NCBI GenBank assembly: GCA_020723345.1
Contig: DYJA01000069.1
Span: 1 to 32,720 of the forward strand
Length of the DNA stretch: 32,720 bases
Origin: Candidatus Aquidulcis sp.
GTDB lineage: Bacteria > Chloroflexota > Anaerolineae > UBA4142
Reading direction: 5' to 3'
Positions 7,980 to 29,320 of this stretch are shown here, piece after piece; the first letter of the stretch is position 1; each line of letters starts with the position of its first letter. The notes under the pieces were generated by a model, which searched no databases, was not told the origin of the DNA, and saw only the letters and a program-made list of their open reading frames with translations. A program made the translations under genes and the position numbers.

Positions 7980-8247
7980 CGGACCTCCTTTCCGGGAAAC
8001 TGCGATCCTCCCGAACGATTTTCACGCCGAAAAATTAGCGTGACTTGTATCCACACGGTACGCCTTCTCTGATTTTTTCGCGTGACGAAGCGGTGTCGCC
8101 TGTCTATTTTCTTTCTTGCAAAAGGTGGTGGAACGCGCGGCGTTCTGCCAGAGGTTTGCCAGATGATTGATAGACCTTGCTCAAGCGCGTCGGGCGGTCT
8201 TGCGGCATAATCAGTCGAGAATTCAACACGGCTTTGAGGTGGCTTGG

Positions 8248-9450
8248 ATGTTCGTTTTGGTTGGTAGTTTTCTCGCCGGCGCGCTCGCGGAATTGATCGG
8301 CGCGCGCGTCGCGTTTCAGAAGATGATCGCCCCGCGCTGGACGGTGGGCTGGTCGGCGTGGCGCGCGCGCGTCCAGAATCTAGTTGTCGCGTATCTGCTA
8401 ATTCATATCGGGTTGGTGGGCGGGGCAGAAATGGCGCAGGCGGAAATCGCGCGTTTTGCCGTAGCGGGGACGCTCTCCGTTATTCTTGCGCTGGCGATGT
8501 TTGGCGTCGCGTGGTTGGGCGCAGTCGCGCTGCGCGTGACCGACGATGCCAAGACGCGGATCACTTTGGCGACGCACTTTGGTTCGGTGAGTATCGGCAC
8601 GTTTGCGACCGTTCAAACTTATCTCACGAGTCAGGGCATTGCGTTCGATCCGGCTTCGGCGGCTTGGCTGACGTTGATGGAAGTGCCGGCGCTTTTCGCC
8701 GGTATCCTCTTGCTCGGCGGCGGTTGGGAATCGCTCAGGCGAATGTTGCTCGACCGCGATCTAGGGTTGCTCCTGGGATCGTTGCTCGCCGGGTACCTTC
8801 TGGGACCGACGGTGGCGCAGCAATTCGATTTTATTATCACCACGCCGTTCGAGTTCGTGCTCTGCTATTTTCTTTTGAATATGGGATTGCGCGCCGGAAA
8901 ACAGATCGCGCAAATCAAAGCCAGCGGCGGCAAACTGATCGCGTTCGGCGTGCTCACCCCGGCGATAGGCGCGGGACTGGGGATCGTGATCGGTGGACTG
9001 GCAAATTTGCAAATGGGTGATATAATCATCCTGGGTACGCTGGCGGCGTCCGCGTCGTACGTGGCGGCTCCGGCAGTGATGGGCAAACAAGTGCCCGCGC
9101 AAGCCATCGCCACGAGTCTTGCCGTGTCGCTCGGCGTGACGCTGCCGTGGAATATCCTGATTGGTATTCCGATCTACACCGGCGTCGCGCGAATGGCGGC
9201 GAATGACGGCGCGCGCGGTGTGATTCTGCTCGTCGCGTTTCTCGCGCTCGCCAGCGTGGCGACGATTTGGATTTTCCGGCGCGATGCTCCGGCTCCGGCG
9301 AAACGCGCAATTCCTTTCGCCAGTTCCGTTCCGGGCGTTGTGAGGTACGTTGACAATCATCCCCCCAAGCGTTTCGATGCGGCGCGCGGCGCGCGGCGCG
9401 ATTTACGTTTGCCGCGCGCGCGCGACGATCCACAAGGCGGGGTCATTTAA
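8248..9450 (+). CDS. SbtA-family permease (sodium-dependent bicarbonate transporter family)
   Basis: Integral membrane protein of 400 residues with about ten hydrophobic segments arranged as two similar halves. Family-typical stretches are THFGSVSIGTFATVQTYL, LTLMEVPALFAGILLL and LAASASYVAAPAVM, followed by SLGVTLPWNILIGIPIY. Members characterised in cyanobacteria import bicarbonate with sodium. The substrate here is not proven. The ATG at 8248 is preferred over one at 8167 because GAGGTGG lies five bases upstream and the first membrane segment begins at once. The tail after residue 350 is charged and Arg-rich. No SbtB/PII-like regulator gene is adjacent. It is the first of ten co-directional genes, 79 bases before the first ATPase. 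Confidence 0.8.
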   Translation: MFVLVGSFLAGALAELIGARVAFQKMIAPRWTVGWSAWRARVQNLVVAYLLIHIGLVGGAEMAQAEIARFAVAGTLSVILALAMFGVAWLGAVALRVTDDAKTRITLATHFGSVSIGTFATVQTYLTSQGIAFDPASAAWLTLMEVPALFAGILLLGGGWESLRRMLLDRDLGLLLGSLLAGYLLGPTVAQQFDFIITTPFEFVLCYFLLNMGLRAGKQIAQIKASGGKLIAFGVLTPAIGAGLGIVIGGLANLQMGDIIILGTLAASASYVAAPAVMGKQVPAQAIATSLAVSLGVTLPWNILIGIPIYTGVARMAANDGARGVILLVAFLALASVATIWIFRRDAPAPAKRAIPFASSVPGVVRYVDNHPPKRFDAARGARRDLRLPRARDDPQGGVI

Positions 9451-9529: not shown

Positions 9530-10972
9530 ATGATCGAGTTGAACTTTCCAAATGCGGTACGTGATCAGAACGATTTGTTTGGACGCGCGGCGGAGATCGA
9601 GACGGCGCGGCAAGCCCTCCGCGCGCGGTCGCGCCAACCGATTGTGATCTTGGGCGAACGCTTGATCGGCAAAACCAGTCTGCACCAAGTCCTGGCGCGG
9701 GAACTCGACCAGGACGCGCGCAAGTCGGTGCTGGCGATTTTTCCCCCTCCGGCGTACACCCTGGCGCTTTTCGCGAGCGAGATCGTCGAATCGATCCGCG
9801 CCGATCTCAGTCTGCTGGGCGTCGCGGCGCACACACCGGCGATCACCGCGCGCGCGCAAGCCCAGGCGATGACCCAGGCAGAATTTCTGCTGCTCTGCCG
9901 GCAACTCTTGAGCGCGCTGCCGCACGCGACGGTCGTCTTGTGCATCGACGAATTCGACAGTCTCTTGCTCAAATGCGCCAAGCCGGAGCAACAGGCGATC
10001 CTCGATTTTACCTCGACGCTGGCGGAGCGCGGCGACCTGCCGCTCATTTTGCTCTTTACGATGAGCCACCCGACGGAGAAGATCGGCGACGCGTACCCGC
10101 TGCGCTTTCTCGCCAAATCGTTCAAGATTCCCTTGCCGCCGCTCGACGCGGCAAGCACCGCCGAGTTGGTGTTGCAGTTGCTTGCTTCGCGTTTCGAGGT
10201 TGCCGAGTCCGCGCAAAAAGAGATTTGGAAATTCTCCGGCGGTCATCCATATTTCGTGAAACTCGTTCTGCAAAATGTTCTGGATCTGCACTTTGCCAAT
10301 CAAGCGGTCAAGGTGTTGACGGCGGAGATGGTCCAACAAGCCGCGCGCCGCGCGCAATCCAGCATCGAAGCTCGATTCTCCTTGACGAACATTTTGAGCG
10401 AGCATTTTTCCGAACGCGAAAACGCCGCGCTGAAATGGCTTGCCACGCGCGAGGGAGCGCTTGCGTGGCATCAGACCGAAGCGCACACGGACGCGCTGCA
10501 AAATCTGATCCAGCGCGAATACGTGGAAGATCGCGCGGGCGATGGGTTGACTTTTCGGATCGGTTTCATTCGGGCGTGGTTGCGCGCCGCGTCTTTTCTG
10601 CCGACAGTTCACCCGCCGCCGTCGCCGGTTGCTCGCCCCGCGACCATCGGCAAACCGATTCTCGTGGTCGATGATGCCAAAAGGCGCGTCTATCTGGGAG
10701 AACGCGAGATTCAGACCACGCCGTTGGAATATTCCGTTTTGGTGTGCTTGGCGCGGCATTTGGGGAAATGCGTCTCCCGCGACGAGTTAGCGCAGGAGGT
10801 TTGGGCAAACGAGGTGTACGGCAAGGGAGTTGGCGATGATCGGATTTACACGATCATGAAACGCTTGCGCGGGAAATTGGACGATGACGATCAAGAGCCC
10901 ACCTACATCGAGACGCGCGCGGGTTTGGGATACATCCTGCACCACGCGGAATATCGCGCTGGCGCCGGATAG
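9530..10972 (+). CDS. STAND/AAA-type ATPase with C-terminal OmpR-like winged helix
   Basis: The protein has 480 residues. The N-terminal P-loop ATPase shows Walker A GERLIGKTS (42-50) and Walker B VVLCIDEFD (135-143), a serine-rich sensor-like region (TMSH), and a helical C-terminal ATPase part with SGGHPYFVKL (236-245), as in archaeal-type and STAND ATPases. Residues about 375-472 form a winged helix of the OmpR/PhoB type (TTPLEYSVLVCLARH, then SRDELAQEVW, then DDRIYTIMKRLRGKL and ETRAGLGYIL). This suggests an ATP-dependent transcription regulator. The ATG at 9530 has AGGTGGGG six bases upstream. Its first 50 residues match the next gene closely, so the two arose by duplication. Its target is unknown; the downstream operon is the obvious candidate. 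Confidence 0.85.
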   Translation: MIELNFPNAVRDQNDLFGRAAEIETARQALRARSRQPIVILGERLIGKTSLHQVLARELDQDARKSVLAIFPPPAYTLALFASEIVESIRADLSLLGVAAHTPAITARAQAQAMTQAEFLLLCRQLLSALPHATVVLCIDEFDSLLLKCAKPEQQAILDFTSTLAERGDLPLILLFTMSHPTEKIGDAYPLRFLAKSFKIPLPPLDAASTAELVLQLLASRFEVAESAQKEIWKFSGGHPYFVKLVLQNVLDLHFANQAVKVLTAEMVQQAARRAQSSIEARFSLTNILSEHFSERENAALKWLATREGALAWHQTEAHTDALQNLIQREYVEDRAGDGLTFRIGFIRAWLRAASFLPTVHPPPSPVARPATIGKPILVVDDAKRRVYLGEREIQTTPLEYSVLVCLARHLGKCVSRDELAQEVWANEVYGKGVGDDRIYTIMKRLRGKLDDDDQEPTYIETRAGLGYILHHAEYRAGAG

Positions 10973-10991
10973 TTGTTCATCTTTGCCTAGT

Positions 10992-11075
10992 GCCCGAAGA
11001 TCAATCTTCGGGCTGAAGAGCCGAAGGACGCTTAAGCGTCCTTGAACTGCCCAGCCCTGTCGTTAACGACGGGCT
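10992..11075. repeat. Cluster of three palindromes between the two paralogous ATPase genes
   Basis: Three separate palindromes fill the gap. Positions 10992-11013 have a 10-bp stem (GCCCGAAGAT, 2-base loop). Positions 11026-11041 are a perfect palindrome (GGACGCTTAAGCGTCC). Positions 11053-11075 have an 11-bp stem with one bulged base (AGCCC-GTCGTT / AACGACGGGCT), followed by ATTTT. The set looks like a composite intergenic repeat element. The last stem could weakly terminate or attenuate transcription inside the operon. Confidence 0.75.
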
Positions 11076-11094
11076 ATTTTCGGGAGAGTGATCT

Positions 11095-12180
11095 ATGGAC
11101 GATTTGAATTTTCCAAATCCAGTAACGGCGGCGAAGGATTTCTTCGACCGCGAATTGGAACTCGATACGATTCAACGCACGCTCGCCTCGTCCACGCGTC
11201 GACCGGTAGTTATTTTCGGCGAACGCGTGATCGGCAAGACTTCGACTCTGAACATTTTGATCGAACGATTGAAAGCGAGTCCGTCTCATGTGATAGTGCA
11301 ATTGCCTCATTCTTATTCGCGCGATGATTTTGCCGCGGAGATATTGCAGGGGATCTGTGAAGCCGTCGATCCGAGTTTGCGCCAGACCAGTTTCGTCAAT
11401 GAGAATGGCTGCCTCAAGATCGCGACGGTGAGCGAGTTTATGCAAGTGATGGAAGAGCAGATCGCCAAACGTCCGGGCGTTAGTTTCGTGCTTTGTCTCG
11501 ACGAATTCGATAGTTTGTTGGCAAGGTGCGATCCGGACGCGGCGAACCAGATTCTCGATCTGACGCTGCACTTGATCGAACGGACGACACTGCCGCTGCG
11601 TTTTGTGTTCACGATGACGCAAATGACCGCCCAGATTCTCCATTCTTACGCCAGTCCTTTCGTCAACGGCGCGACGATTGTTCCGCTCGCGCCCTGGTCG
11701 TCAGCGCAGTCGCGCCAATTCGTCGAATGGTTGATTGGAACGCGTTTCGTGATCGAGGAGGAGGCGCATCGGTTGCTCTTTGGAATGGCGGCGGGGCAGC
11801 CCTATTTTACCAAGGCGATTTTGCGCGAACTGATCGAGCCGCGTCGCGAGCAGGCGCAATCCGTTCGCGTGACTGCCGCGCAATTGCAGGATGCCATCGC
11901 GGCAAGTGTCAATTCGTCCGAAATGAAGTTTACGCTCGCCAATATCTGGCACGCCCATTTTTCAAAGCCGGAGCAAGATTTGATGATCCGGCTTGCCGCG
12001 TCCCCAAACGGATTAACCGCGTCTGAACTCCAAGCGCATGCTATCGAGTGTCCTAAAGTACCGCAAAGATTGATGGAGCGCGGGTATATCGAAAAAGATA
12101 AACACGATCGTTACACTTGGCGGCTCGGTATTTTGGGGCAGTGGTTGATCGAAAATTCCTTTGCAACTCCGGCGCAGTGA
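11095..12180 (+). CDS. STAND/AAA-type ATPase, short paralogue
   Basis: The protein has 361 residues. Walker A is GERVIGKTS (42-50) and Walker B FVLCLDEFD (131-139), at nearly the same places as in the preceding protein. Both begin with a shared LNFPN motif, and the GQPYFTKAIL segment corresponds to GHPYFVKLVL there. The region after about 280 is helical and resembles a small winged helix (SKPEQDLMIRLAASPNGLTA), but the OmpR-type domain is absent. The start at 11095 is preceded by GGGAGAG at about 11081-11087. As part of the operon it may oligomerise with its paralogue or act as its antagonist; this is an inference. No metabolic function can be assigned from the sequence. Confidence 0.8.
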   Translation: MDDLNFPNPVTAAKDFFDRELELDTIQRTLASSTRRPVVIFGERVIGKTSTLNILIERLKASPSHVIVQLPHSYSRDDFAAEILQGICEAVDPSLRQTSFVNENGCLKIATVSEFMQVMEEQIAKRPGVSFVLCLDEFDSLLARCDPDAANQILDLTLHLIERTTLPLRFVFTMTQMTAQILHSYASPFVNGATIVPLAPWSSAQSRQFVEWLIGTRFVIEEEAHRLLFGMAAGQPYFTKAILRELIEPRREQAQSVRVTAAQLQDAIAASVNSSEMKFTLANIWHAHFSKPEQDLMIRLAASPNGLTASELQAHAIECPKVPQRLMERGYIEKDKHDRYTWRLGILGQWLIENSFATPAQ

Positions 12181-12185
12181 TTTAT

Positions 12186-12240
12186 CCTTGCGAAGATCGA
12201 GCCTGTATTCGGTTTGCGCGGCAAGCCAATCTTTGCAAGG
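12186..12240. repeat. 12-bp inverted repeat in front of the large ATPase gene
   Basis: CCTTGCGAAGAT (12186-12197) and ATCTTTGCAAGG (12229-12240) are complementary, with one G-U pair in RNA, around a 31-base loop. It occupies almost the whole gap between the second and third ATPase genes and ends 13 bases before the start codon, where it could affect ribosome access. Confidence 0.5.
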
Positions 12241-12253
12241 TCGAGTTTGATAA

Positions 12254-15200
12254 ATGCACCCCTTACCTTTCGCGCAGATCAATCGCATCAAGGCGCGGCT
12301 CACTAACGACGCGCTATCGCATCTGGTCGCGGTTTTTTCCCAGCAAGAAGGTGAGCGTCTGCTGCTCGTCTATCTCAGAGACGCGGTTCCCCCGATTCTA
12401 CCTCCCAAGTGTCAAGCGATTCCACTCGGCGATCTACGCGATTACGATCTCGCCCAGTACGACGGTCTCGTCATGGCGGTTTCGGTTGTCGACGTCATCC
12501 GTCCTGAGATTCCGACCAAAGGTCCGAATTTCTTTTCGCTGAGTCATCTCTTGCGCGAGCGCAATTGTTTCGATTTGCTGTGGCATACCTGGGGCGAACT
12601 CAGTTGTTTTTTGTTGGAATTGCTTCGCAGCGCGGCAGCGAAACCGATGTCCGAGGCGCAGAAAGAACGCGCGCTGTTTCAGATGATTTGGTTGGCGGCG
12701 CAGGCGCGACTGACTCAACTACCGCGCCAGGATCTCGTCGCGCTCGTGCCGGATCGCAATCTCGCCGCGTTCGTCGAACAGGGCGTCTGCCGCGCGGTGT
12801 ACAGTCAGTTGCCTGCCGCCGACGCGTTGCCGGATCACATCCAAGCATATTCGTTGGAACAATTGAAACATTCGGGGTTTCTGCAGAAGGAGGATCGGGT
12901 CATCGCGTTTGAGGAGGTGTGCAGCGAGGGAATGGGCTTGGGACCCCGGTCGTTCCGTTTCTTGGAATTGCGGGGAGTGTTGCGCCAAAGCGGTTTGGAC
13001 GATGCGCTCGACCGAACCTTGCATCGGCTGGCGATCGATTATTACGACAGTTGGTGCGCCGGGTCATCCGACGCCGAGTGTCTGCGAATGGCGCACGCGT
13101 TGATCGTCGAGGGCTTGCTCGCCAAGCGCGAGGTGGACGATTTGATTGCGGTACTGCCGCGCGACGATTGGGATGCGTTCGCTCAACACGGCGCGGCGAT
13201 TTTCCTCTATCGGCAATTGCCTGAACATGCCGACCCAGGAGAAGGAACGGGCACGCGCCATCTGTCGCTCGAGGATTTGAAATCGAATCGGTTGCCCGCC
13301 GGTTTCGGACAGACGACCTTTGCTTTTCTGCCGCTTGCGCCGCAATTTGAAGCGGCAGGCAGCGCGCGCGTGTACGATCTCGGCTTGTTGCTCCACCAAG
13401 CCGGAAAAACCGGCGCCATGGCGCGCAGCAGTTGGTTGTTGGCGCGCGATCTGCTGGGCTGGTCGCCGGGCGAGCGTCAGACGCGGAATATTTCCATTCC
13501 CGAATTGGCGAAGATCGCGACGCACAGTTGCGCTTTGCTCGGCATCGAAGATCCATGGCTGCGGCAGGGTCATTTTCGGCAGGCGGTCGAGTTGGCGTAT
13601 CGTACCCAGGATCAGATTCTGGAAATGCAAGCCCAAGCCAGTCCTGCGCTCGAGCAACTGTACTATCAAGCCCTGCGCTTGTGGTACCATTGCGGCGAAT
13701 TGAAACCCGAGGAAATCGAGCCGACGCTGAATCAGATGGTCGTATTGTTGCGCGAGTACGAGCAAAAGAGTCGTCAGTTGAGCGAGCCGCGTTCATGGGC
13801 GCGGGAACAGGCGTTACATTTGCAATCGGTGGGCGAGGCATTGTTGCACATGTTAAGCGGCGGTGGTCAGCCGGAGATCATCTTGCGTGTCTACGCCGAA
13901 GAACTCACCCCCGCGCCGAGCAGCGTGCCGCAGGAAATTCGGCTCGTGGCGGATTTGGCGCAAGCCATCGAAGTGCCCTCCCGACTCTTTCGCTTGGCTT
14001 TCCGACGATACGCCGAAATTGTCCAACAGATTCAACGCATTCGCACCAGTCAGATTCCCATTGACGACAAGATCGCACGGTTGCAGGACGGGACCGTGTC
14101 GCTGCGGGATGCGCGCCGAGTGGCGTTTGCGCATCGCCACGAGCGGCGCATTTTGGATCGACTCTACGAATTTGCCATCGAACAAACCGAGTCGCTGGTG
14201 AATGAACTTCAAGGCAGCGCGCAGTTGGAGATCGAGTTATTGACCCAGGCGGTGGCGCAGCATGAAGAACACACGCTGACCTTTCTCGTGCGCAACATTG
14301 GCAGAGTCAGCGCGGGCGCCGTCGAAGTTGAATTTGCGCGCTCTGAACATTTCGCGCTGGTGGAAGAGAGTGCAGTGAAAGACCTGAGTGATCTTTTGCC
14401 GGAGGCGGCAAAGCGCATTCCCTTTGCCATTCGTCCGCGCGTCGATCACGATTTTGCCGTTGGTTTGAAGGTAACCTACCGTGATTTGCAGCAGCAAGTT
14501 CGGGTCCGGCAGCAGGAATTTTTGCTGCGGATCGTAAGTCTGGATCGCGGACCGTTTCGCCCCAAGCCCAATCCCTACGTGTATGGCGCGCCCTTGCAGG
14601 ATCACCGCCTGTTCTACGGACGCCAGCGCGAGTTGGAGTCGTTGCTCAGTCATCTGACGGCGGGGCGACAACAGAATGTTTTGATCCGCGGTGCGCGGCG
14701 CGCCGGCAAAACCTCGGTCCTCAATATGTTGAAGGCAATCGTAGACGATGAGCAGGGGCAGGGTCATATTCGCAAGTGGTTTCAAGTTCCCGACGCGTGG
14801 TATCCCGCGCTGGATCGTCTTCATGCGATCCCCTTGGATTTGCAAAGTGTCGAGCGACAACAAGGCGCGCTGACGCCCAGTGCGTTTTACCAAGCCATTC
14901 TAGGCAGGATTCGGGAGTTGGGACTAGACAGCCAACTCCTGAGCGCGATGTTGTCTGAGCCGCGTGTCACTACCACGCTGTTCACCAAGACGCTCGAACT
15001 GACACTGCAACAGCACGCGGGGACGCGGCTGGTTTTCTTGCTGGACGAATTCGACGTTGTGGACACGATTACCGACAAGACATTTTACGCGCACCTGCGG
15101 CATACGATTTCCCAAGTCCAAGGCGCGACGTGGATTATCGCGAGCGCGCTCGGACTCGACCGCGCGGTGAGCGATTACGAGTCGCCGTTGTTCAACGTGT

Positions 15201-15844
15201 TCAAGATTATCAACTTGGAAAGATTGGACGCCGCAGCCGCACGTCGGTTGATCCTCGATCCGTGGCAAGCGGGCGCGGGCGAAGGGGCGGACGACCAGGT
15301 GACCTTGCAATTTACCGACGACGCGGTGGATGCCATTCTGTATGAAACGGGTTGCTATCCGTATTTCATTCAACTGCTCTGCAGCGCGATTGTGGAACAG
15401 ATCAATCTCGCGCGGACGAACTATGTTCAGCGCGGCATGGTGTACCAGGTGATCGACAAGATCATCGCGTCCCGCAGCGCGGCGTACGAGCACTTTGTCT
15501 TTCCATGGGATCGGGCAGACGGCATCGGCAAGGTGACGTTGCTCGTCCTCCTCAGCCAGATCGAATCGCCCAACACGCATGAACTAAAGCATTTGGTCTG
15601 GGAGCGGTTGCATGACCGCGGGATCAGCGCAGCGCCGAATGTGCTGTTGGCGCTGTACGACGAAGGGCTGCGCCAACTGCAGGCGGTCGACGCGGTCGCG
15701 TTGGATCATCACAATCGTTATGTGTTCGCGATTCCCTTGTTTCGGCGCTTGCTCTTGGAACGCAAGAACCACAGCGACCTATGGACAAACGCGTTCCAGG
15801 AACTACAGGCAGACCTGCGGCGCAAGGAGAAACATGACGGATAA
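12254..15844 (+). CDS. Large protein with C-terminal P-loop ATPase, coupled to the Ehr-like operon
   Basis: The product has 1196 residues. The N-terminal 600 residues have no recognised family but contain two similar blocks (about 158-210, DLVALVPDRNLAAFVEQGVC, and about 294-350, DLIAVLPRDDWDAFAQHGAA), a sign of internal duplication. About 600-660 is helical. About 665-770 looks like an Ig/CARDB-type beta sandwich (LTFLVRNIGRVSAGAVEVEF). The ATPase starts near 785 (NPYVYGAPLQDHRLFYGRQR), with Walker A GARRAGKTS (813-821) and Walker B LVFLLDEFD (926-934). A helical end resembles STAND proteins. No membrane helix is evident. The gene overlaps the next one by 11 bases (ATGACGGATAA), so the two are made together. 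A sensing or assembly role for the complex is inferred only from this linkage. Confidence 0.75.
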   Translation: MHPLPFAQINRIKARLTNDALSHLVAVFSQQEGERLLLVYLRDAVPPILPPKCQAIPLGDLRDYDLAQYDGLVMAVSVVDVIRPEIPTKGPNFFSLSHLLRERNCFDLLWHTWGELSCFLLELLRSAAAKPMSEAQKERALFQMIWLAAQARLTQLPRQDLVALVPDRNLAAFVEQGVCRAVYSQLPAADALPDHIQAYSLEQLKHSGFLQKEDRVIAFEEVCSEGMGLGPRSFRFLELRGVLRQSGLDDALDRTLHRLAIDYYDSWCAGSSDAECLRMAHALIVEGLLAKREVDDLIAVLPRDDWDAFAQHGAAIFLYRQLPEHADPGEGTGTRHLSLEDLKSNRLPAGFGQTTFAFLPLAPQFEAAGSARVYDLGLLLHQAGKTGAMARSSWLLARDLLGWSPGERQTRNISIPELAKIATHSCALLGIEDPWLRQGHFRQAVELAYRTQDQILEMQAQASPALEQLYYQALRLWYHCGELKPEEIEPTLNQMVVLLREYEQKSRQLSEPRSWAREQALHLQSVGEALLHMLSGGGQPEIILRVYAEELTPAPSSVPQEIRLVADLAQAIEVPSRLFRLAFRRYAEIVQQIQRIRTSQIPIDDKIARLQDGTVSLRDARRVAFAHRHERRILDRLYEFAIEQTESLVNELQGSAQLEIELLTQAVAQHEEHTLTFLVRNIGRVSAGAVEVEFARSEHFALVEESAVKDLSDLLPEAAKRIPFAIRPRVDHDFAVGLKVTYRDLQQQVRVRQQEFLLRIVSLDRGPFRPKPNPYVYGAPLQDHRLFYGRQRELESLLSHLTAGRQQNVLIRGARRAGKTSVLNMLKAIVDDEQGQGHIRKWFQVPDAWYPALDRLHAIPLDLQSVERQQGALTPSAFYQAILGRIRELGLDSQLLSAMLSEPRVTTTLFTKTLELTLQQHAGTRLVFLLDEFDVVDTITDKTFYAHLRHTISQVQGATWIIASALGLDRAVSDYESPLFNVFKIINLERLDAAAARRLILDPWQAGAGEGADDQVTLQFTDDAVDAILYETGCYPYFIQLLCSAIVEQINLARTNYVQRGMVYQVIDKIIASRSAAYEHFVFPWDRADGIGKVTLLVLLSQIESPNTHELKHLVWERLHDRGISAAPNVLLALYDEGLRQLQAVDAVALDHHNRYVFAIPLFRRLLLERKNHSDLWTNAFQELQADLRRKEKHDG

Positions 15845-18020
15845 TATTTGGGCAAGTTGGATCGTTTGGTTGTTCTGGATCGAGTGCGCGATCTTTGGGC
15901 TAGGTTCGACGGCAGGACCGTTCCTGCCGCCGGTCGCTCGCGCTCTAGGGCTGGATGAAAACAGGGCGAAGAACTGGGCAATGCGTCTCGCGCTTGCGCT
16001 TGCATTTTTCGGTGGGTTGATGACTGTCGGCGCGAGCGGATGGTACCTGGCGACGTTCGCGGGACGCGGAGAGGATTGCAACTGCAAAATCGCGACGACG
16101 ATCTGGTCGGGCATAGATATTGTCGGCATTTCAACCTTCCCACGGTTTGCGTTGACGTTGTATGTGGACGCGCTATCCGCGTTATTCGGGTTGCTGATTG
16201 GATTTTTTACCGCGTGCGTCGCTTGGTATTCGTTTAGTTGGCTAGATCGGAATCCGCGACGGCACAGTGTTGCCGGAGCGTTCGGGCTATTCGCGTTCTC
16301 CACGTTGCTGGTCGTGCTGGTCAATAATGGTTTTTGGCTGCTCTTGGTTTTAGAGCTGATGAGTTTATCGTTTGGCTACTTGGTGCTTTATCGCGGACAA
16401 CAAGGCGGCATGCAGGAAGAGAGCAAGACTGCTATCCGAACTTATCTGATTGTGAGTCACGTCAGTACGATTTGTCTAGCGATTGCGATTCTGATCATCG
16501 GCAACAACCCCAGGTCGCCGTCGCTCGACTTTGAACTGTTTCGCCAATACAGGGATTCGCTTCCCCCTCTGAGTCGAGACGTTGCTTTTGTGTTTGCGCT
16601 CATCGGCTTGGGGATGCGCGCCGGGATGACGCCGTTTCATTTCTGGGTGCCGGTTGCGCATCCTCAATCTCCGACGACGACGCACGCGTTTTCGCTCGGC
16701 GTCGCGATCAAAGTCGCCATCTATTTGATGATTCGATTTTTCTTTGAATTTCTGTCGCCGATATCGTGGTGGTGGGGCGCGTTGCTTTTGGTGCTGGCAG
16801 GGCTGACCGCGGTGCTCAACGTCTTTTACGCGCTGCTCAGCCGCGATCTCAAGCGCGCGTTGGCGTATCACAGCGTAGAAAACATCGGCATCATTTTGGT
16901 CGGGTTGGGCTTGGCGCTTCTCTTTGGTAGCGAACGTTTTGGTGGTGATGTGACGGTCCGGAGTGTCGCCGGGGTAGCCCTGATCGCGAGTTTGTTCCAC
17001 GTTATTAATCACGCTATTTTCAAAGGATTGTTGTATTTGGGCACGGGATGCATCGAGAATCGCACGCATACTGTGATTATGGACGAACTGGGCGGACTCA
17101 TCCGGCGTTATCCCTGGACAAGTGTAATGTTCTTGGTTGGCGCGATCGCGATTGCCGGGTTTCCGCCGTTTAACGGTTTTATCAGCGAATGGCTGACCCT
17201 GCAATCCTTTTTTGCGGGGATTGACGTTTATCGCGCGCGCGACTTGACGCCCGTGTTGATGCTCGTCTTGCCCGTCACGCTCATTATGCTGGGGCTGGCG
17301 TTTGCGCTGACCGCGCTGGCGTTCGTCAAGATCGCTGGAGAGACGTTGCTGGGGTTGCCGCGCAATCCCAAGATCGTCGCCGGGTTCAAGCCCGGCGACG
17401 CGCCGGTCTCCATGCGATTCGTTCTGTTCGTTCTGGCGGCGCTTTGCTTAGTACTCGGATTGTTTCCTAGTCTTTTGATTCCTTGGTTGGCGGCAGCGGT
17501 AAACGGCATTGGGTATGACACGCGGGCGTTGCGCGCCGATCTTTTTGATCTCACGATTGCTATTCAGAAATCGTCCGGCGAGAGTATCTATCTCACCTCA
17601 CTCGCGATGTTGCCGATTGGGATGTTAGTGGTGGGACCCGTGGCGACGATTCTTGCCGCCTTCGTCTGGCGGCGATTTCGACCGGCGCGCTCCAGCCCGG
17701 TCTGGGTCGGCGGTGAACCGTACCAACCGCAAACGATGCAATACACCGGCAGTGCGCTCTCCGCCCTCGTGTGGGAGACCTTCCAAAAACACGCGGCGGC
17801 GCGCCGATTCGAAGAACCGCTGCCCACCGTCTTTGCGCTTGCCGAAGGCAGGTACGTGATGGAACAGATCAATCGCGGGTACAACGCCGGGATCGCGATG
17901 GTGTTGCGGGCATCGACGTGGGTCGGCGAACATCTGCAAAACGGCGATATTCGAATGTACCTCTTGTACATTTTTGGCGCGTTCATCACCGTGCTCTTGG
18001 TGTTGGCGGTGGCGCGCTGA
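15834..18020 (+). CDS. HyfB/NuoL-like membrane subunit of an Ehr-type complex
   Basis: Antiporter-like proton/cation channel subunit of 728 residues with about 15 or more membrane helices. The core motifs are FWLLLVLELMSLSFGYLV (E174), GLGMRAGMTPFHFWVPVAHP (R262 at the position where most relatives have lysine), GVAIKVAIYLMIR (K293) and RALAYHSVENIGI. The C-terminal extension (from about 600) carries VWVGGEP and resembles HyfB-type subunits. The true start is 15834, inside the end of the upstream gene. Longer frames starting at 15612 only repeat that gene in another frame. The next gene starts 53 bases later. Together with the following five genes it encodes the membrane and peripheral parts of a group 4 hydrogenase-like complex. 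Confidence 0.9.
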   Translation: MTDNIWASWIVWLFWIECAIFGLGSTAGPFLPPVARALGLDENRAKNWAMRLALALAFFGGLMTVGASGWYLATFAGRGEDCNCKIATTIWSGIDIVGISTFPRFALTLYVDALSALFGLLIGFFTACVAWYSFSWLDRNPRRHSVAGAFGLFAFSTLLVVLVNNGFWLLLVLELMSLSFGYLVLYRGQQGGMQEESKTAIRTYLIVSHVSTICLAIAILIIGNNPRSPSLDFELFRQYRDSLPPLSRDVAFVFALIGLGMRAGMTPFHFWVPVAHPQSPTTTHAFSLGVAIKVAIYLMIRFFFEFLSPISWWWGALLLVLAGLTAVLNVFYALLSRDLKRALAYHSVENIGIILVGLGLALLFGSERFGGDVTVRSVAGVALIASLFHVINHAIFKGLLYLGTGCIENRTHTVIMDELGGLIRRYPWTSVMFLVGAIAIAGFPPFNGFISEWLTLQSFFAGIDVYRARDLTPVLMLVLPVTLIMLGLAFALTALAFVKIAGETLLGLPRNPKIVAGFKPGDAPVSMRFVLFVLAALCLVLGLFPSLLIPWLAAAVNGIGYDTRALRADLFDLTIAIQKSSGESIYLTSLAMLPIGMLVVGPVATILAAFVWRRFRPARSSPVWVGGEPYQPQTMQYTGSALSALVWETFQKHAAARRFEEPLPTVFALAEGRYVMEQINRGYNAGIAMVLRASTWVGEHLQNGDIRMYLLYIFGAFITVLLVLAVAR

Positions 18021-18073
18021 GAGTTGATTGCCTTGCAAAACATCCTTCGCTAGATTCAAAACCAGGTGAAACA

Positions 18074-19066
18074 ATGCAAGAGTTTCCACCCTTGTTCCGA
18101 TCGCTAATCATTTTGATTGCCCAGGCAAGTTTCAACGCGGTGATCGCGCCCGGCGCGATTGGATTGTTGCGCTGGTTCAACGCGCGGCTACAGCATCGGC
18201 GCGGCGCTGACATCTTCCAGCCCTACCGCGATCTGTACAAATTGACTTTCCGCAGGCAGTCTAGCATCTTTGAGCCAACCTCAGGGATCTTTTGGATCGC
18301 CCCTCCCGCGATCCTCGCGTGTTATTTTCTCCTAGGGGGACTACTGCCCAGTCTTTTCTTGACGGATTTGCCTGGCGCGCCTGCGCCGTGGCGCGGCCTC
18401 GATCTGTTGTTTGTGATCTATCTACTGGGGCTCGCCAAATTTATCGCTGGACTCGCTGCGTTCGACGCCGCCACGCCTTTCGGTAACATATCGAATGGGC
18501 GTCAATTCTTTTTGCACCTCCTCGTCGAACCGGTTTTTCTGGCGACGGTCTATGCGCTTGCGCTCAAAGGTCACACCAGCAATCTCGACCGCTTCATTGC
18601 GGATCAACAACAGTTGAGCGTCATTTCTGTCTTCGCGAATCCAGTCATGATCCTGGTATTGCTATCCCTCGGCACGATTTCTCTGGCGGAGAACGGGCGG
18701 CTGCCATTCGACAAGCCGGGGACGCACCTCGAATTGACGATGATCGAACCAGGGACGAGTCTTGAATTCAATGGACGCGGTTTGGCGCTGATCGAGTGGG
18801 CGAACGCGATGAAATTAACGTTCTTTGTTTCCCTACTGTCAGATCTCCTGTTCCCGTGGAGTCTCGCGACGAAATCATTTTCGGCCACCCTGCTTCCCGG
18901 CATGCTCGTCTATCTCGTGAAACTGGTGGCGGTTATTTTTCTCGTGGCGCTTTGGGAGATCACGCGAGCCAAATTGCGGCTGCGGGCAGTCTCTGGTGCG
19001 CTGATGGCGGCGCTCGGCGTGGCGTTTATCGCGTTGGTTTATGTGATTATGACCGACTATTTGTAG
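18074..19066 (+). CDS. HyfC/NuoH-like membrane subunit of an Ehr-type complex
   Basis: The product is 330 residues long, close to E. coli HyfC (about 322). It has eight or so membrane helices. Typical segments are QPYRDLYKLTFRR in the first cytoplasmic loop, the acidic motif ENGRLPFDKPGTHLELTMIE (about 210-230) and LEFNGRGLALIEWANAMKL. In complex I the NuoH subunit links the peripheral arm to the ion channels and lines the quinone cavity. Here it would link the altered large and small subunits to the HyfB- and HyfF-like channels. The ATG is preceded by AGGTGA at good distance. A 11-base gap separates it from the next gene. Confidence 0.92.
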   Translation: MQEFPPLFRSLIILIAQASFNAVIAPGAIGLLRWFNARLQHRRGADIFQPYRDLYKLTFRRQSSIFEPTSGIFWIAPPAILACYFLLGGLLPSLFLTDLPGAPAPWRGLDLLFVIYLLGLAKFIAGLAAFDAATPFGNISNGRQFFLHLLVEPVFLATVYALALKGHTSNLDRFIADQQQLSVISVFANPVMILVLLSLGTISLAENGRLPFDKPGTHLELTMIEPGTSLEFNGRGLALIEWANAMKLTFFVSLLSDLLFPWSLATKSFSATLLPGMLVYLVKLVAVIFLVALWEITRAKLRLRAVSGALMAALGVAFIALVYVIMTDYL

Positions 19067-19077
19067 GAGGATGAATC

Positions 19078-19845
19078 GTGGAATTTCTTCCCGAACTGAT
19101 TCTCGTCATATCTTTTTTCATCTTACTAGTGGCAGTATCGATATCAACGTCGACGACGGTCAAGAGTATGTTGAATCTCTATCAGTGGCAGGCATTGATG
19201 GTGACTGCGATCGTGTTATTTACTGCTGCCGAAAGTCAGCCGATCAATCTCCCCCTCGCGGTTGTTGCGGTGCTCCCAATTTTCCTGGCGTTGGCGATCA
19301 AACCTCTGTTGCGACGCGCAACGTTGGCTGTTCCGGAAGAGCCCGGCAAGGCGGAGTCAAAGACGCGCCCTCAATTACTCGAGGCGGATGGAGAAGGCGG
19401 GCTAGGCATGTTACCGCGCGAGCCGGAATTGACTTGGTTGCAGCAGGGTCGCTCGCGCCTTCCGCCGGTTGTCCTGCTCGGCATCGGTTCGATGTTGACG
19501 TTGTTTTCATTCATCGTGGCTTATCTTCTGATTGGGAAGGGCCCCCAACCGGGGATCGATCCCAACAGCGTCGGAATCTCGATTGCGCTGCTCCTGATCG
19601 GCATCTTGATCATGAGTAACAAGCGGGACATCATCGCGCAGATCATCGGCCTTTTGGTGATGGAACACGGTCTCTTCCTGGCGGCGATCAAAGTCATCAC
19701 GCGTCCACACCTTGCGATTTTCTTTGCCGGCGCCCTCTTCTTTTATATCTTGATCACACTCACCATTCTCGTCTGGCTTTTACCGACGTTGCATCGCGTC
19801 TCCGGCAGCATCGAACTGAACGCCCAGGCGCAACTGAAAGGATGA
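19078..19845 (+). CDS. HyfE/NuoK-like membrane subunit of an Ehr-type complex
   Basis: The product has 255 residues and a GTG start, chosen because AGGAGG (19065-19070) lies seven bases upstream. An ATG at 19071 touches the ribosome-binding site and is in another frame. Three helices are followed by a hydrophilic loop of about 50 residues (80-130), longer than expected for the family (HyfE of E. coli is about 216 residues), and then further helices. The segment ISIALLLIGILIMSNKRDII and the glutamate in LLVMEHGLFLAA (E196) match the buried glutamate of NuoK-type subunits. The 4-base gap to the next gene indicates translational coupling. Confidence 0.88.
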   Translation: MEFLPELILVISFFILLVAVSISTSTTVKSMLNLYQWQALMVTAIVLFTAAESQPINLPLAVVAVLPIFLALAIKPLLRRATLAVPEEPGKAESKTRPQLLEADGEGGLGMLPREPELTWLQQGRSRLPPVVLLGIGSMLTLFSFIVAYLLIGKGPQPGIDPNSVGISIALLLIGILIMSNKRDIIAQIIGLLVMEHGLFLAAIKVITRPHLAIFFAGALFFYILITLTILVWLLPTLHRVSGSIELNAQAQLKG

Positions 19846-19849
19846 GGCG

Positions 19850-21430
19850 ATGGATCTGTTTGATCAGACGACAGCCGCCAAGTTATTGGTGGTTACGCCG
19901 CTGTTTGCGGCAATCCTTACCTTGCTGCCGGAGTGGCTGGGACGATTGCGGTCGCCCTTTGGCGCTGGCACCGCGCGATATTCCCAAACGATGCAAAATG
20001 GAATGACCGTTGCTGCTTCATCCATTTCGCTCATTCTCGCTTTGTTCCTCGCGATTGAACCTGCCACGGGTAAGAAACTCGCGTTCGAATTTGTCGGAAT
20101 GGAATTCTTTCTCGACGCGCTCAGTGTCTATTTTGTGTTATTGGTCAACCTCGTCGCGCTCGCTGCCTCGCTTTACATCCGATCCTTTTTGAATTATCAA
20201 GCGGAAGTGTTTCCGTACCAATCTACGGACGCCACGCGCTTTCACGTCATCTTTAATTTGTTTCATTTCACCATGCTGTTGGTGCCGATGGTGGACAACC
20301 TCGTCCTCCTCTGGATTTGTGTCGAATTGACCACGATCACCTCGACGATTCTTGTCGGTCATCGCCGCGATCGCTTGGCGTTGGAGGCGGCGTGGAAGTA
20401 TATCGTCATCACTTCGACCGGGATCATCTTTGCCTTGCTCGGCACACTATTTTTGGCGAATGCCAATCCAACGGGCGAATCGATGAATTGGTCGTACCTG
20501 GTCAAGGTGGCGAGTCAATTCGACAAGAATTTCGTCAAACTCTCGTTTCTGTTTATCCTGGTCGGTTATGGCGCCAAAGCTGGTTTTGCGCCGATGCACA
20601 CCTGGCTGCCGGATGGTCACGGCGAAGCGCCCTTTCCAGTCAGCGCGCTCTTGTCCGGCGTGTTGCTCAAGTCCGCGCTGTACGCCATTCTGCGTTTTTA
20701 CACGCTCACCAACCTCGCGCTCGGCGATACGCTTTTCACGTCGCGGATCCTTCTCGTATCGGGACTCTTTTCGCTCGCGCTGGCTACGCCGTTTATTCTC
20801 AAGCGTAACCGGTTCAAGCGCGTTCTGGCGTATCACAGTTTGGAGCACATGGGCATCATCACCTTTGGTCTGGGAATCGGCGGCAACATCGCGCTGTTTG
20901 GCGCATTGCTGCACGCCTTGAATCACGCGATCACCAAGGCATTGATGTTTCTAGCGTTCGGCAACGTGCAGGTGAGTTACGCGCGCGTGCGCGGCGACGA
21001 AGAAGAACACGTCGTCGGCATCTTGCGCGCGACGCCGATCACGGGATTCGTGTTAGCCCTCGGCGGGTTGGCGCTGGTCGGCTCGCCGCCGTTCAACATC
21101 TTCCTCAGTGAATTTATTATTCTGTGGGCAGCCGTCCAGCAAGCGGTCGAGCAGTCGAGTTTTGGATTGGCGGCGGCGACCGCGCTCTTTGTGCTTTCGG
21201 TGACGCTGATCTTTGCCGGATTGGTGCGCCACCTCGGTCGGATGCTCATTGGCATTCCTCCTTCGAACGTCAAACCGGAGACCGTTGGACAGGTTTTGCC
21301 CCTACTCGTGCTCTTTGCCATCGTCTTGGTTTTTGGCTTCACCGTCCCTTCCATCGGTCTTTGGGACATACCTCGATTGCTGCAACAAAGCGTTCTGGTG
21401 ATCGAGTGCGGAGTGAGCCCATGTCGTTAG
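19850..21430 (+). CDS. HyfF/NuoN-like antiporter subunit of an Ehr-type complex
   Basis: The product has 526 residues, the same length as E. coli HyfF, with about 13-14 membrane helices. The charged residues of ion-translocating antiporter-like subunits are all present: glutamate in WICVELTTITS (E159), lysine in GYGAKAGFAPMHTWLPDGHG (K243), lysine in SGVLLKSALYAILRF (K274) and histidine in RVLAYHSLEHMGI. This subunit should therefore still conduct ions. GGATGAGG precedes the ATG. The stop overlaps the start of the next gene by 10 bases. Confidence 0.92.
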   Translation: MDLFDQTTAAKLLVVTPLFAAILTLLPEWLGRLRSPFGAGTARYSQTMQNGMTVAASSISLILALFLAIEPATGKKLAFEFVGMEFFLDALSVYFVLLVNLVALAASLYIRSFLNYQAEVFPYQSTDATRFHVIFNLFHFTMLLVPMVDNLVLLWICVELTTITSTILVGHRRDRLALEAAWKYIVITSTGIIFALLGTLFLANANPTGESMNWSYLVKVASQFDKNFVKLSFLFILVGYGAKAGFAPMHTWLPDGHGEAPFPVSALLSGVLLKSALYAILRFYTLTNLALGDTLFTSRILLVSGLFSLALATPFILKRNRFKRVLAYHSLEHMGIITFGLGIGGNIALFGALLHALNHAITKALMFLAFGNVQVSYARVRGDEEEHVVGILRATPITGFVLALGGLALVGSPPFNIFLSEFIILWAAVQQAVEQSSFGLAAATALFVLSVTLIFAGLVRHLGRMLIGIPPSNVKPETVGQVLPLLVLFAIVLVFGFTVPSIGLWDIPRLLQQSVLVIECGVSPCR

Positions 21431-23130
21431 ACGCAACCTACCGGCAATTCTATCAGTGGGCGGAAAAGTACGGCGAATGGTTGTACCTGCCCGCGTCCAA
21501 TCACATCGCGACGCGCCTGCAAGAACCGGACGCGCTGCGCGCCTTTGCCCGGCTGCTTGCCGACGCGCGTGTGTACCTCGCGACCGTCGTGGCGAATGAC
21601 GAACGCGAGTTGGAGGATCACTGCTTCAAAATCTACTATCTCTTCTCGCACCCCACCGAGGATCTTTTTTTGACCGTCGAGTATCTCTTGGGACAAGGCG
21701 CGGAATTCTATCCTTCCTTGTTCGCGTTATTTTCCTCCGTGGATTCATTCGAAAGGGAAATCCGCGATCTGTTCGGGCTGAAAGCGATCCGAGAAAATGG
21801 CGAGACCGTTCAGCCGCGTAGTTGGCTCCACGCGCCCTATCCCGCCGATTTATTTCCGCTGCGACGCGACCGCACCAACGCGCAACTCAAGCAAGCCGTG
21901 GATGCGTACAATCGAGACGGACTAGATCGCAGTACGCCGGTGGAAACGATGAGCGTCAACCCCGGCAGTCTGTTGTTGTCGGTGGGACCCGTTCACGCCG
22001 GAATTATCGAGCCGGGGCGATTCGTTTTTCGGATCGCGGGCGAGGTGATTGACGATCTGACAATTTTCCTGGGATACGCGCACAAAGGGATCGAGCGGCT
22101 CTTTCAGACGCGCCCGACACTGACGGATGGTTGGCGGCTCGCCGAGCAAGTCTCGGGGGATTCGGCGTTCGCGCACGGGTTGGCGTACTGCCGCGCGGTG
22201 GAGATGTTGGCGAACGCGCCGCCGGAGACGGCGGCGGAACTGCTGCGCGGATTGTTTCTCGAACTGGAGCGGATGTACAATCACATCGGCGATGTCGCCG
22301 CGCTCGCGCAGGACGTCGCGCTCGAGCAGATCGCGTCGGAGATCGCCGTCGTGCGCGAAAACTTGGTGCGCTTGAATGCCGCCATCGCCGGGCATCGCTA
22401 TCTGCGTGGGCTGAATCGTCCCGGCGGTATTTGCTTGCCGCGACCGCTGGATCACGCTCGGATCGCGATGGAATTGCATTCGGCGGTCGAATCGTTCAAC
22501 ATCCTCGCGAATGAATTGACGAACCGGAGCGCTTTTCGCGATCGCACGATTGAAACTGGCGTTCTTACATCGTCGGACGCTTTGGCGACCGGCGCGACCG
22601 GGTTGGCGGCGCGCGCCTCCGGCATCGCGCGGGATTTTCGCTGCACTCATCCGAGTGGGGTGTACTGCGAACCCTGGCTGCGACGATTGATGGAGCCGGC
22701 GCCTTTCGGCAAAACCGATTTGCCCGAGGCGACACGCGGTGATGTCTATGCGCGCTTTTTGACGCGAGTTCGCGAGGTCAATACTTCTGCGGCACTGATC
22801 CACGCGATTCTTGAGCGATGGAAAGATTGCGGGGAAAAAGAAAACACGGATTTCCTCACGGAGATCCGGTTCAACCCGGACAGGAATTTTACCTTCGCGC
22901 TGGGCTATGCCGAAGGGTGGCGCGGGGAAATCATCTACTGGCTGATGCAGGACAAGATGGAACACATCTATCGCTGCCAAGTCCGCGACCCGTCGATGTT
23001 GAACTGGCTCGCGCTGCGCTGTTCCATCGTCCCTCACGAGGTCGAGGGCAAGCGCGTCGAGACGATCTTGCCGGATTTTCCATTGATCAATAAAAGTTTC
23101 AACTTGTCATACTCGGGGAACGATTTATGA
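21421..23130 (+). CDS. HyfG-like large subunit (NuoC-NuoD fusion) lacking all NiFe cysteines
   Basis: The product has 569 residues. Residues 1-170 are NuoC-like (FEREIRDLFGL, 110-120, and a conserved HAPYPADLFPLR). Residues 178-569 are NuoD/hydrogenase large-subunit-like (SVGPVHAGIIEPGRFVFRI, GYAHKGIERLF, MYNHIGD). In active group 4 hydrogenases two CxxC motifs hold the nickel-iron centre. Here the first reads VSGDS (S245, S248) and the second DPSMLNW (S525, N528), so every ligand is replaced. The fold is otherwise intact and the reading frame is open, so this looks like a maintained change and not decay. Such proteins are known from energy-converting hydrogenase-related (Ehr) complexes, whose reaction is unknown. 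No hyp maturation genes are nearby, which agrees with the loss. Confidence 0.9.
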   Translation: MSLDATYRQFYQWAEKYGEWLYLPASNHIATRLQEPDALRAFARLLADARVYLATVVANDERELEDHCFKIYYLFSHPTEDLFLTVEYLLGQGAEFYPSLFALFSSVDSFEREIRDLFGLKAIRENGETVQPRSWLHAPYPADLFPLRRDRTNAQLKQAVDAYNRDGLDRSTPVETMSVNPGSLLLSVGPVHAGIIEPGRFVFRIAGEVIDDLTIFLGYAHKGIERLFQTRPTLTDGWRLAEQVSGDSAFAHGLAYCRAVEMLANAPPETAAELLRGLFLELERMYNHIGDVAALAQDVALEQIASEIAVVRENLVRLNAAIAGHRYLRGLNRPGGICLPRPLDHARIAMELHSAVESFNILANELTNRSAFRDRTIETGVLTSSDALATGATGLAARASGIARDFRCTHPSGVYCEPWLRRLMEPAPFGKTDLPEATRGDVYARFLTRVREVNTSAALIHAILERWKDCGEKENTDFLTEIRFNPDRNFTFALGYAEGWRGEIIYWLMQDKMEHIYRCQVRDPSMLNWLALRCSIVPHEVEGKRVETILPDFPLINKSFNLSYSGNDL

Positions 23131-23145
23131 GTGGAGCACAGAATC

Positions 23146-23667
23146 ATGTCACATCGACAATTGGGTAAGAGAAATTGGGTCAATCGCTTGCAGGCGTTGT
23201 TCGGTTTGCGCCTGGACACCGAAACGCAGCCGCGTCCGAGCAGAGGATCGATTTTTAGCCGCTCCATTTTCATTCGACATCTGGATGGCGGTTCGACCAA
23301 CGCGCCGGAAATGGAACTGACCGCGCTGAGTAATCCCATCTACGATCTCGCGCAGTACGGCATTCACTTTGTGCCTTCGCCGCGTCACGCCGACATTCTG
23401 ATCGTCACGGGACCGCTCACTTGGAATATGCTTGGACCAACGCTCGCGACGTTCGAGGCAATGCCAGAACCCAAACGGATCGTCACTGTTGGCGATTGCG
23501 CCAGTTTTTCGGAACAAGGCGGTGATCCAGATTGTCTCTTCAGCGAATCGTATGCGGTCACCGATTTGCCATCTGAAATGACAACGAAAATCGTCGCGCA
23601 CGTTGCCGGCGATCCGCCCACGCCGCGCGCGATCATCCAAAGTTTGTTGCGCTTGGACAAGAAATAA
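23146..23667 (+). CDS. HyfI/NuoB-like small subunit lacking most Fe-S ligands
   Basis: The product has 173 residues. The family core is evident: NPIYDLAQYGIHFVPSPRHA, DILIVTGPLTWNM and RIVTVGDCASF. The proximal [4Fe-4S] cluster of this family is normally held by a CNGC-type pair, a GDC or GTC cysteine and a GCPP cysteine. Here the pair reads STNAPE (T51, P54) and GCPP reads GDPP (D156). Only C118 of GDCA remains; C130 is not at a standard position. A cluster of the usual kind is thus unlikely. The ATG at 23146 is preferred over the GTG at 23131 because GGAG (23133-23136) then lies nine bases upstream. It is the last gene of the operon; its stop codon abuts the terminator. Confidence 0.88.
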   Translation: MSHRQLGKRNWVNRLQALFGLRLDTETQPRPSRGSIFSRSIFIRHLDGGSTNAPEMELTALSNPIYDLAQYGIHFVPSPRHADILIVTGPLTWNMLGPTLATFEAMPEPKRIVTVGDCASFSEQGGDPDCLFSESYAVTDLPSEMTTKIVAHVAGDPPTPRAIIQSLLRLDKK

Positions 23668-23710
23668 AAACCCCGCGACCTTGATCACGCGATCAAGGTC
23701 GCGGGGTTTT
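23667..23710. terminator. Bidirectional terminator between the Ehr-like operon and rplS
   Basis: A perfect 20-bp stem (23667-23686 with 23691-23710, loop ACGC) starts with AAAACCCC and ends with GGGGTTTT, so it has a T run on both strands. It serves the plus-strand operon and the minus-strand L19 gene, whose stop is at 23724. Confidence 0.95.
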
Positions 23711-29297: not shown

Positions 29298-29320
29298 ATC
29301 TAGGTTGGAGCGAGGTGACT

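Follow-up and report, generated by a model that had tools for sequence, protein, structure and literature searches.

The window, a 32,720-nucleotide single contig in the 6.34-Mb genome of a Candidatus Aquidulcis sp., carries three ATPase genes (9530-15844, here ATP1, ATP2 and ATP3) followed by six hyf-like genes (15834-23667), all on one strand. The earlier note had raised the question of whether homologues of such ATPases also neighbour Ehr genes in other genomes, and our searches showed that they do, since ATP3 lies directly upstream of hyfB in six of six linked genomes from two phyla. The sequences suggest that a nucleotide switch now controls a redox-dead Ehr complex. Ehr complexes are energy-converting hydrogenase-related complexes in which the NiFe ligands are absent, whose function is unknown and for which redox coupling is suspected (PMC6349859, PMC10284858). 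The features of the window are collected in Table 1.

Table 1. Genes and other features of the ATPase-hyf block in the window
Feature	Position	Strand	Evidence or remark
ATP1, STAND-type ATPase (AAA_16/AAA_22) with C-terminal OmpR-type winged helix, 480 aa	9530-10972	+	Pfam, motifs
Interspersed palindromic repeat, ATP1-ATP2 gap	10992-11080		About 14 places in the genome, not operon-specific
ATP2, ATP1 paralogue without winged helix (ATPase_2/nSTAND1), 361 aa	11095-12180	+	Pfam
ATP3, STAND ATPase, 1196 aa	12254-15844	+	Pfam, motifs, profile searches
HyfB, NuoL/HycC-like antiporter subunit	15834-18020	+	Hydrogenase 4 subunit B model; HycC alignment
HyfC, NuoH/HycD-like	18074-19066	+	NADHdh 3.9e-27; HycD alignment
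HyfE-like membrane subunit, 255 aa	19078-19845	+	Hydropathy: several predicted membrane spans
HyfF, NuoM/N-like antiporter subunit	19850-21430	+	Pfam Proton_antipo_M 3.4e-48
HyfG, NuoC+NuoD-like large subunit without either [NiFe] Cys pair	21421-23130	+	Alignments
HyfI, NuoB-like small subunit	23146-23667	+	Three of four FeS-ligand Cys lost (T51, P54, C118, D156)
Strong intrinsic terminator, bidirectional	23667-23710		20-bp perfect stem

Gene layout and the three ATPases

The genes, the size of ATP3 (1196 residues, on the strand of the membrane genes) and its 11-base overlap with hyfB were all as the earlier note had placed them; hyfB starts at an ATG at 15834 with an AAGGAG ribosome-binding site in front of it. 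ATP1 and ATP2, described there as paralogous, were 33% identical over 363 amino acids (E 4e-51). The claim that no terminator precedes 23710 stood with one qualification: a strong terminator does close the block, and the remaining terminator-like matches were at chance level (28 observed versus 23.7 expected), but a weak terminator-like hairpin lies at 11056-11073, in the 122-bp gap between ATP1 and ATP2. This gap also holds the palindromic repeat, about 90 bp long and present elsewhere in the genome in copies of 78-94% identity, so that a single transcript across the gap is not assured; a continuous transcript is likely, not certain.

Two neighbours of the block were recorded. A gene for an Sbt_1-type (Na-dependent bicarbonate) transporter is located at 8167-9450, 80 bp upstream of ATP1 and on the same strand; bicarbonate uptake was considered as part of the system and rejected, as this gene is absent from the other linked loci. 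At 29315-32659 the window encodes a protein of 1114 amino acids with a P-loop region and a match to the PADLOC model PDC-S60 (6e-23), possibly a defence or signalling protein.

AAA_16, ATPase_2, AAA_22 and nSTAND1 Pfam matches were obtained for all three ATPases, some with scores just under the cut-off, and the motifs that mark STAND ATPases (P-loop, DE Walker B and a GxP-like motif) were present in the form of Walker A GExxxGKTS or GARRAGKTS, Walker B DEFD and (G)xPYF. ATP1 matched AAA_16 (3.2e-10) and Trans_reg_C (1.7e-17), the latter at 63.7 bits against a curated cut-off of 26.2, which identifies an OmpR-type DNA-binding domain that was absent from the description in the earlier note and makes ATP1 a regulator-like arm of the module. 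ATP1 thus resembles the MalT/AfsR-like STAND regulators in joining a P-loop STAND core to a winged helix, whereas it differs from them in that the helix is OmpR-type and C-terminal and in that its partner ATP3 is translationally coupled to a membrane complex. An equivalent of ATP2 was seen in only one of the five other linked loci, that of genome G970.

ATP3 consists of an N-terminal region of about 650 amino acids, a segment at about 655-765 that is likely a beta-sandwich, and a STAND ATPase at about 780-1060, of which the Walker motifs are retained in all six linked loci. No match to an ATP3 profile was found among PDB sequences, and ATP3 was not found on plasmids. An AlphaFold model made from a two-row alignment had a mean pLDDT of 39, and no fold search was based on it; a three-fold repeat in the N-terminal region had weak support, in two of three segments, and is not claimed.

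Similar pairs occur in other Chloroflexota: at L051 (2759-9152) and L049 (3850-9869), a STAND-winged-helix gene is paired with the gene of a large STAND protein bearing a beta-propeller or HEAT repeats, and the L049 partner also gave a wHTH match. These pairs are a general two-gene STAND module, like the window in that a STAND gene with a winged helix adjoins a second STAND gene, and unlike it in the N-termini of the partners and in that no Ehr genes follow. Because the N-termini of the other partners differ, the N-terminal region of ATP3 appears partner-specific and probably ties a general switch to its own partner, the Ehr complex. In genomes of the same family, complex I L/M/N genes are followed by two STAND genes at L045 (own genome, C25; 7206-19998) and L059 (G012:C186, 4051-15516), one STAND gene being fused to TPR, FHA and ABC transporter domains. 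A general theme of STAND and complex I genes, with STAND genes after nuoN in the window's own genome, was considered and set aside, since there were two cases only.

Membrane complex and its redox ligands

The six membrane-complex genes proved to be hyf-like, as the earlier note had them, with HyfB scoring 460 bits on the hydrogenase 4 subunit B model, under the cut-off of that model, and with the position of the HyfE-like gene conserved across the six linked loci. The description of the complex as redox-silent was borne out by alignment to the solved subunits of formate hydrogenlyase and complex I and to a related hydrogenase. In HyfG, SGDS...LSYS stands where the [NiFe] ligands CGIC...CxxC would be expected; its C-terminal end, SFNLSYSGND, is aligned with SIDPCYSCTE from L099, a hydrogenase with its ligands intact. 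The CxxC pairs of group 4 [NiFe] hydrogenases are thus missing. The quinone-site tyrosine of complex I (LDYVS, 49-kDa subunit) aligns with the glycine of VSGDS in HyfG, and in HyfI the FeS cysteine positions are T, P, C and D, with C118 the sole cysteine left and the N2 cysteine lost; the complex therefore lacks both the quinone-site tyrosine and the N2 cluster of respiratory complex I. No ferredoxin-like subunit is encoded in the block.

What the complex does have is the make-up of Ehr, namely a B, C, E, F arm, NuoCD- and NuoB-like subunits, the loss of all four NiFe cysteines and a phylogenetic position among the Ehr large subunits and HyfF. It departs from its relatives in the FeS ligands of the small subunit (TPCD versus CCCC in 81 relatives). 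Retention of these ligands is no published defining criterion, and the complex stays a member of Ehr, as a variant. It shares with published Ehr the six hyf-like subunits B-C-E-F-G-I without CxxC NiFe ligands (PMC6349859, PMC10284858) and differs by the three ATPases in the operon and by the lost small-subunit ligands; whereas published Ehr is suspected to be redox-driven, the window complex, judged by known cofactors, cannot be. In the open-access literature, we found neither a linkage of ATPases with Ehr nor an Ehr complex lacking FeS ligands described.

Hydrogenase 4 and formate hydrogenlyase (Hyf/Hyc; structure 7z0s) have the same set and order of subunits in the membrane arm and for the large and small subunits, whereas the window block is without the NiFe site, the proximal FeS cluster, the ferredoxin-like HyfA/HyfH and a formate dehydrogenase gene. 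Mrp-type antiporters likewise have ion-translocating antiporter-like subunits without redox cofactors, while the window complex keeps a NuoB/NuoCD-like hydrophilic arm and a NuoH-like subunit. The position of hyfI varies: it is last in the linked operons and in most Proteobacteria, and precedes hyfB in L095 and L098 of the same class.

All reading frames of the linked complexes are open, and the ion-path Glu, Lys and His of HyfF are kept in the linked members (the HyfF of G799 is cut by a contig end). For these reasons, the linked Ehr complexes do not look like relics.

Linkage and ligand decay in other genomes

A scan with HyfG across genomes yielded 80 loci. The closest was that of Virgisporangium ochraceum (Actinomycetota), with 51% identity in HyfG and 59% in HyfF, where a STAND-winged-helix gene, ATP3, hyfB, C, E, F, G and I follow one another in the order of the window and where ATP3 is 39-41% identical across its whole length. 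In the other 79 loci, no ATP3 was found in the available DNA, some contigs breaking off near hyf. When 396 genomes from the class to which the window belongs were searched with a profile of the N-terminal region of ATP3, another four came up (G799, G778, G970 and G797), several of the genomes in the analysis being incomplete metagenome assemblies; in all four, hyfB-C-E-F come right after ATP3, followed by G-I where the contig permits. The STAND-winged-helix gene precedes ATP3 in the three of these four whose contigs reach upstream, and overall in the five of the six linked loci that include upstream DNA. Among 396 actinomycete genomes, the same profile found Virgisporangium only. Across the approximately 790 genomes, this N-terminal region was thus seen only in Ehr-linked orthologues and in one divergent homologue on a broken contig of G798, where it was matched at E 1.6e-7 in a set of 3238 reading frames and is the sole match beyond the six; a different cut contig of G798 carries a divergent Ehr.

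The converse search, in which HyfG was run against 381 genomes of the class, separated out a strong group (E < 1e-137) made up of the five linked genomes of the class and G913, as well as a partial large subunit in G968, matched at 52%; the contigs of G913 and G968 stop before the position of ATP3. A second group was matched at about 40% identity, and no ATP3 was found in its available DNA. No such ATPases were seen near about 80 other Ehr loci, which indicates that Ehr complexes as such do not depend on these ATPases. G797 carries both kinds, a linked Ehr with decayed FeS ligands and a conventional, FeS-intact Ehr without ATPases.

The junction between ATP3 and hyfB is coupled in all six linked loci, with overlaps of 11, 8, 4, 4 and 1 base and one 1-base gap, and this coupling persists despite only 24-28% identity between the deepest members. 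In trees of HyfF and HyfG, the six linked loci grouped as a single clade on a long stem (100/100 support), and the ATP3 tree had the same main division, {G970, G797} versus {window, Virgisporangium, (G799, G778)}. On these trees, which rest on few linked members, the membrane complexes of the linked loci showed common descent. A wider HyfF and HyfG sample added G798, G879, G913 and G968 to the clade; G879, placed near its base from partial sequence, is probably a basal member. The linkage, the conserved coupling and the congruent trees argue that the ATPases belong to the system. Mere chance could be invoked for their adjoining the complex, as STAND genes are frequent in the genome and class of the window; the neighbourhood data refute it, with linkage in six of six genomes from two phyla, a conserved gene order, overlaps and congruent trees, and we rank it last, as practically negligible.

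The genes flanking the linked loci examined vary, which makes the ATPase-hyf block the conserved unit. A further candidate is a role in conflict, in which the STAND proteins would detect an invader and the complex would be an anti-phage or self-killing effector that dissipates the membrane potential. STAND ATPases do act in bacterial conflict systems (PMC7159879), and the patchy distribution, with an isolated actinomycete member, would fit. However, PADLOC models matched ATP2 and ATP3 only marginally, at the P-loop, and did not match ATP1, HyfB or HyfG, leaving no convincing core-protein match of the kind by which known anti-phage defence is recognised; the block follows its own phylogeny as a unit, the flanks examined share no defence neighbours, and an effector of six subunits would be unusual. 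We consider this role quite improbable and rank it fourth.

The small-subunit FeS ligands were CCCC in 76 of the 80 loci of the first survey, the only non-truncated exceptions being the window and Virgisporangium, and all the Ehr relatives were without [NiFe] ligands. The survey of the class added five unlinked loci with intact FeS ligands, for a total of 81 intact Ehr loci without ATP3. In the linked loci, the ligands read CCCC in G970, C-C- in G797, --C- in the window, G778 and G799, and ---- in Virgisporangium. With G970 basal, this order along the tree points to stepwise decay inside the ATPase-linked clade, where FeS cofactor loss, as read from the ligands, is concentrated. That such loss is exclusive to ATPase-linked loci was dropped, given G970, which has ATPases and intact ligands, and G840 (L250, G840:C82, 9425-16972), in which a conventional Ehr operon has lost all four HyfI FeS cysteines with no ATPase within 20 kb. 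The loss in G840 is an independent event, seen once outside the ATPase clade, and indicates that cofactor loss does not require ATPases. Directly downstream of the FeS-intact linked operon of G970, positions 1495-4080 of L227 hold a gene for cobalt/nickel uptake of the CbiM type (1495-2490) and the frames next to it.

Candidate roles of the ATPases

The earlier note had proposed that ATPases assemble, gate or sense the complex. A role as assembly or maturation factors would account for a linkage that is fixed and a junction that is coupled, and other large complexes do have assembly factors that depend on ATP. Nevertheless, about 80 Ehr loci have no such genes nearby, the linked clade has the fewest cofactors to insert and should have a smaller need for maturation, and no STAND-winged-helix protein is known as an assembly factor; this role ranks third, as improbable.

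The winged helix of ATP1 adds a fourth option beyond those three, in which the ATPases would be a transcriptional control module only, ATP1 sensing a signal with the aid of ATP2 and ATP3 and switching the operon on while the complex itself is untouched. Many bacterial STAND ATPases act only in the regulation of transcription; ATP1 is the first of the ATPase genes in every linked locus with upstream DNA present, and the similar pairs of other Chloroflexota genomes stand in unrelated contexts. Control of transcription alone leaves unexplained the translational coupling of ATP3 and hyfB in six of six loci, the 650-residue ATP3 region restricted to Ehr loci and the decay of the FeS site in the linked clade, and we rank it second, as rather unlikely though worth serious attention.

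The reading to which we give most weight, tentatively and short of calling it probable in its own right, is that of a cofactor-free Ehr ion translocator gated by a STAND switch, with a transcriptional arm, for which the name "Ehr-STAND" subfamily could serve. The hydrophilic arm of HyfG and HyfI would have abandoned redox chemistry, while the antiporter-like membrane arm of HyfB, C, E and F would have kept its ion-path residues (as seen in HyfF). Two or three STAND switch ATPases would be produced from the same operon as the complex; ATP3, with its system-specific N-terminal region, would most likely dock on the HyfG/HyfI arm, and its ligand-triggered ADP/ATP switch would open or block ion movement. 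ATP1, with its STAND core and winged helix, would most likely set the expression of the operon on the same or a related signal. This gated reading builds on the gene content, order and coupling observed in six genomes, on the common descent of the linked complexes, on their complete loss of [NiFe] ligands and stepwise loss of FeS ligands, and on the retained P-loop motifs and HyfF ion-path residues, from which we infer that ATP3 contacts the complex, as well as the gating and the involvement of an ion, a direction of flow and a ligand. Against it are G970, whose FeS motif is intact although the ATPases are present, the cofactor loss of G840 without ATP3, G879, in which no ATP3 is recognisable (its genome is 98% complete and its contig is cut at hyfG), and the frequent occurrence of STAND ATPases in genomes of this kind.

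It has long been asked how, in complex I, the hydrophilic arm brings about ion movement in a distant membrane arm, and a natural relative with both arms, no electron chemistry and switch ATPases would allow this coupling to be examined free of redox chemistry. As a graded series with four, two, one and no FeS ligands, the linked clade makes the loss of redox function traceable in living members, and the Ehr family, whose function is unknown, gains a directly testable genetic partner.
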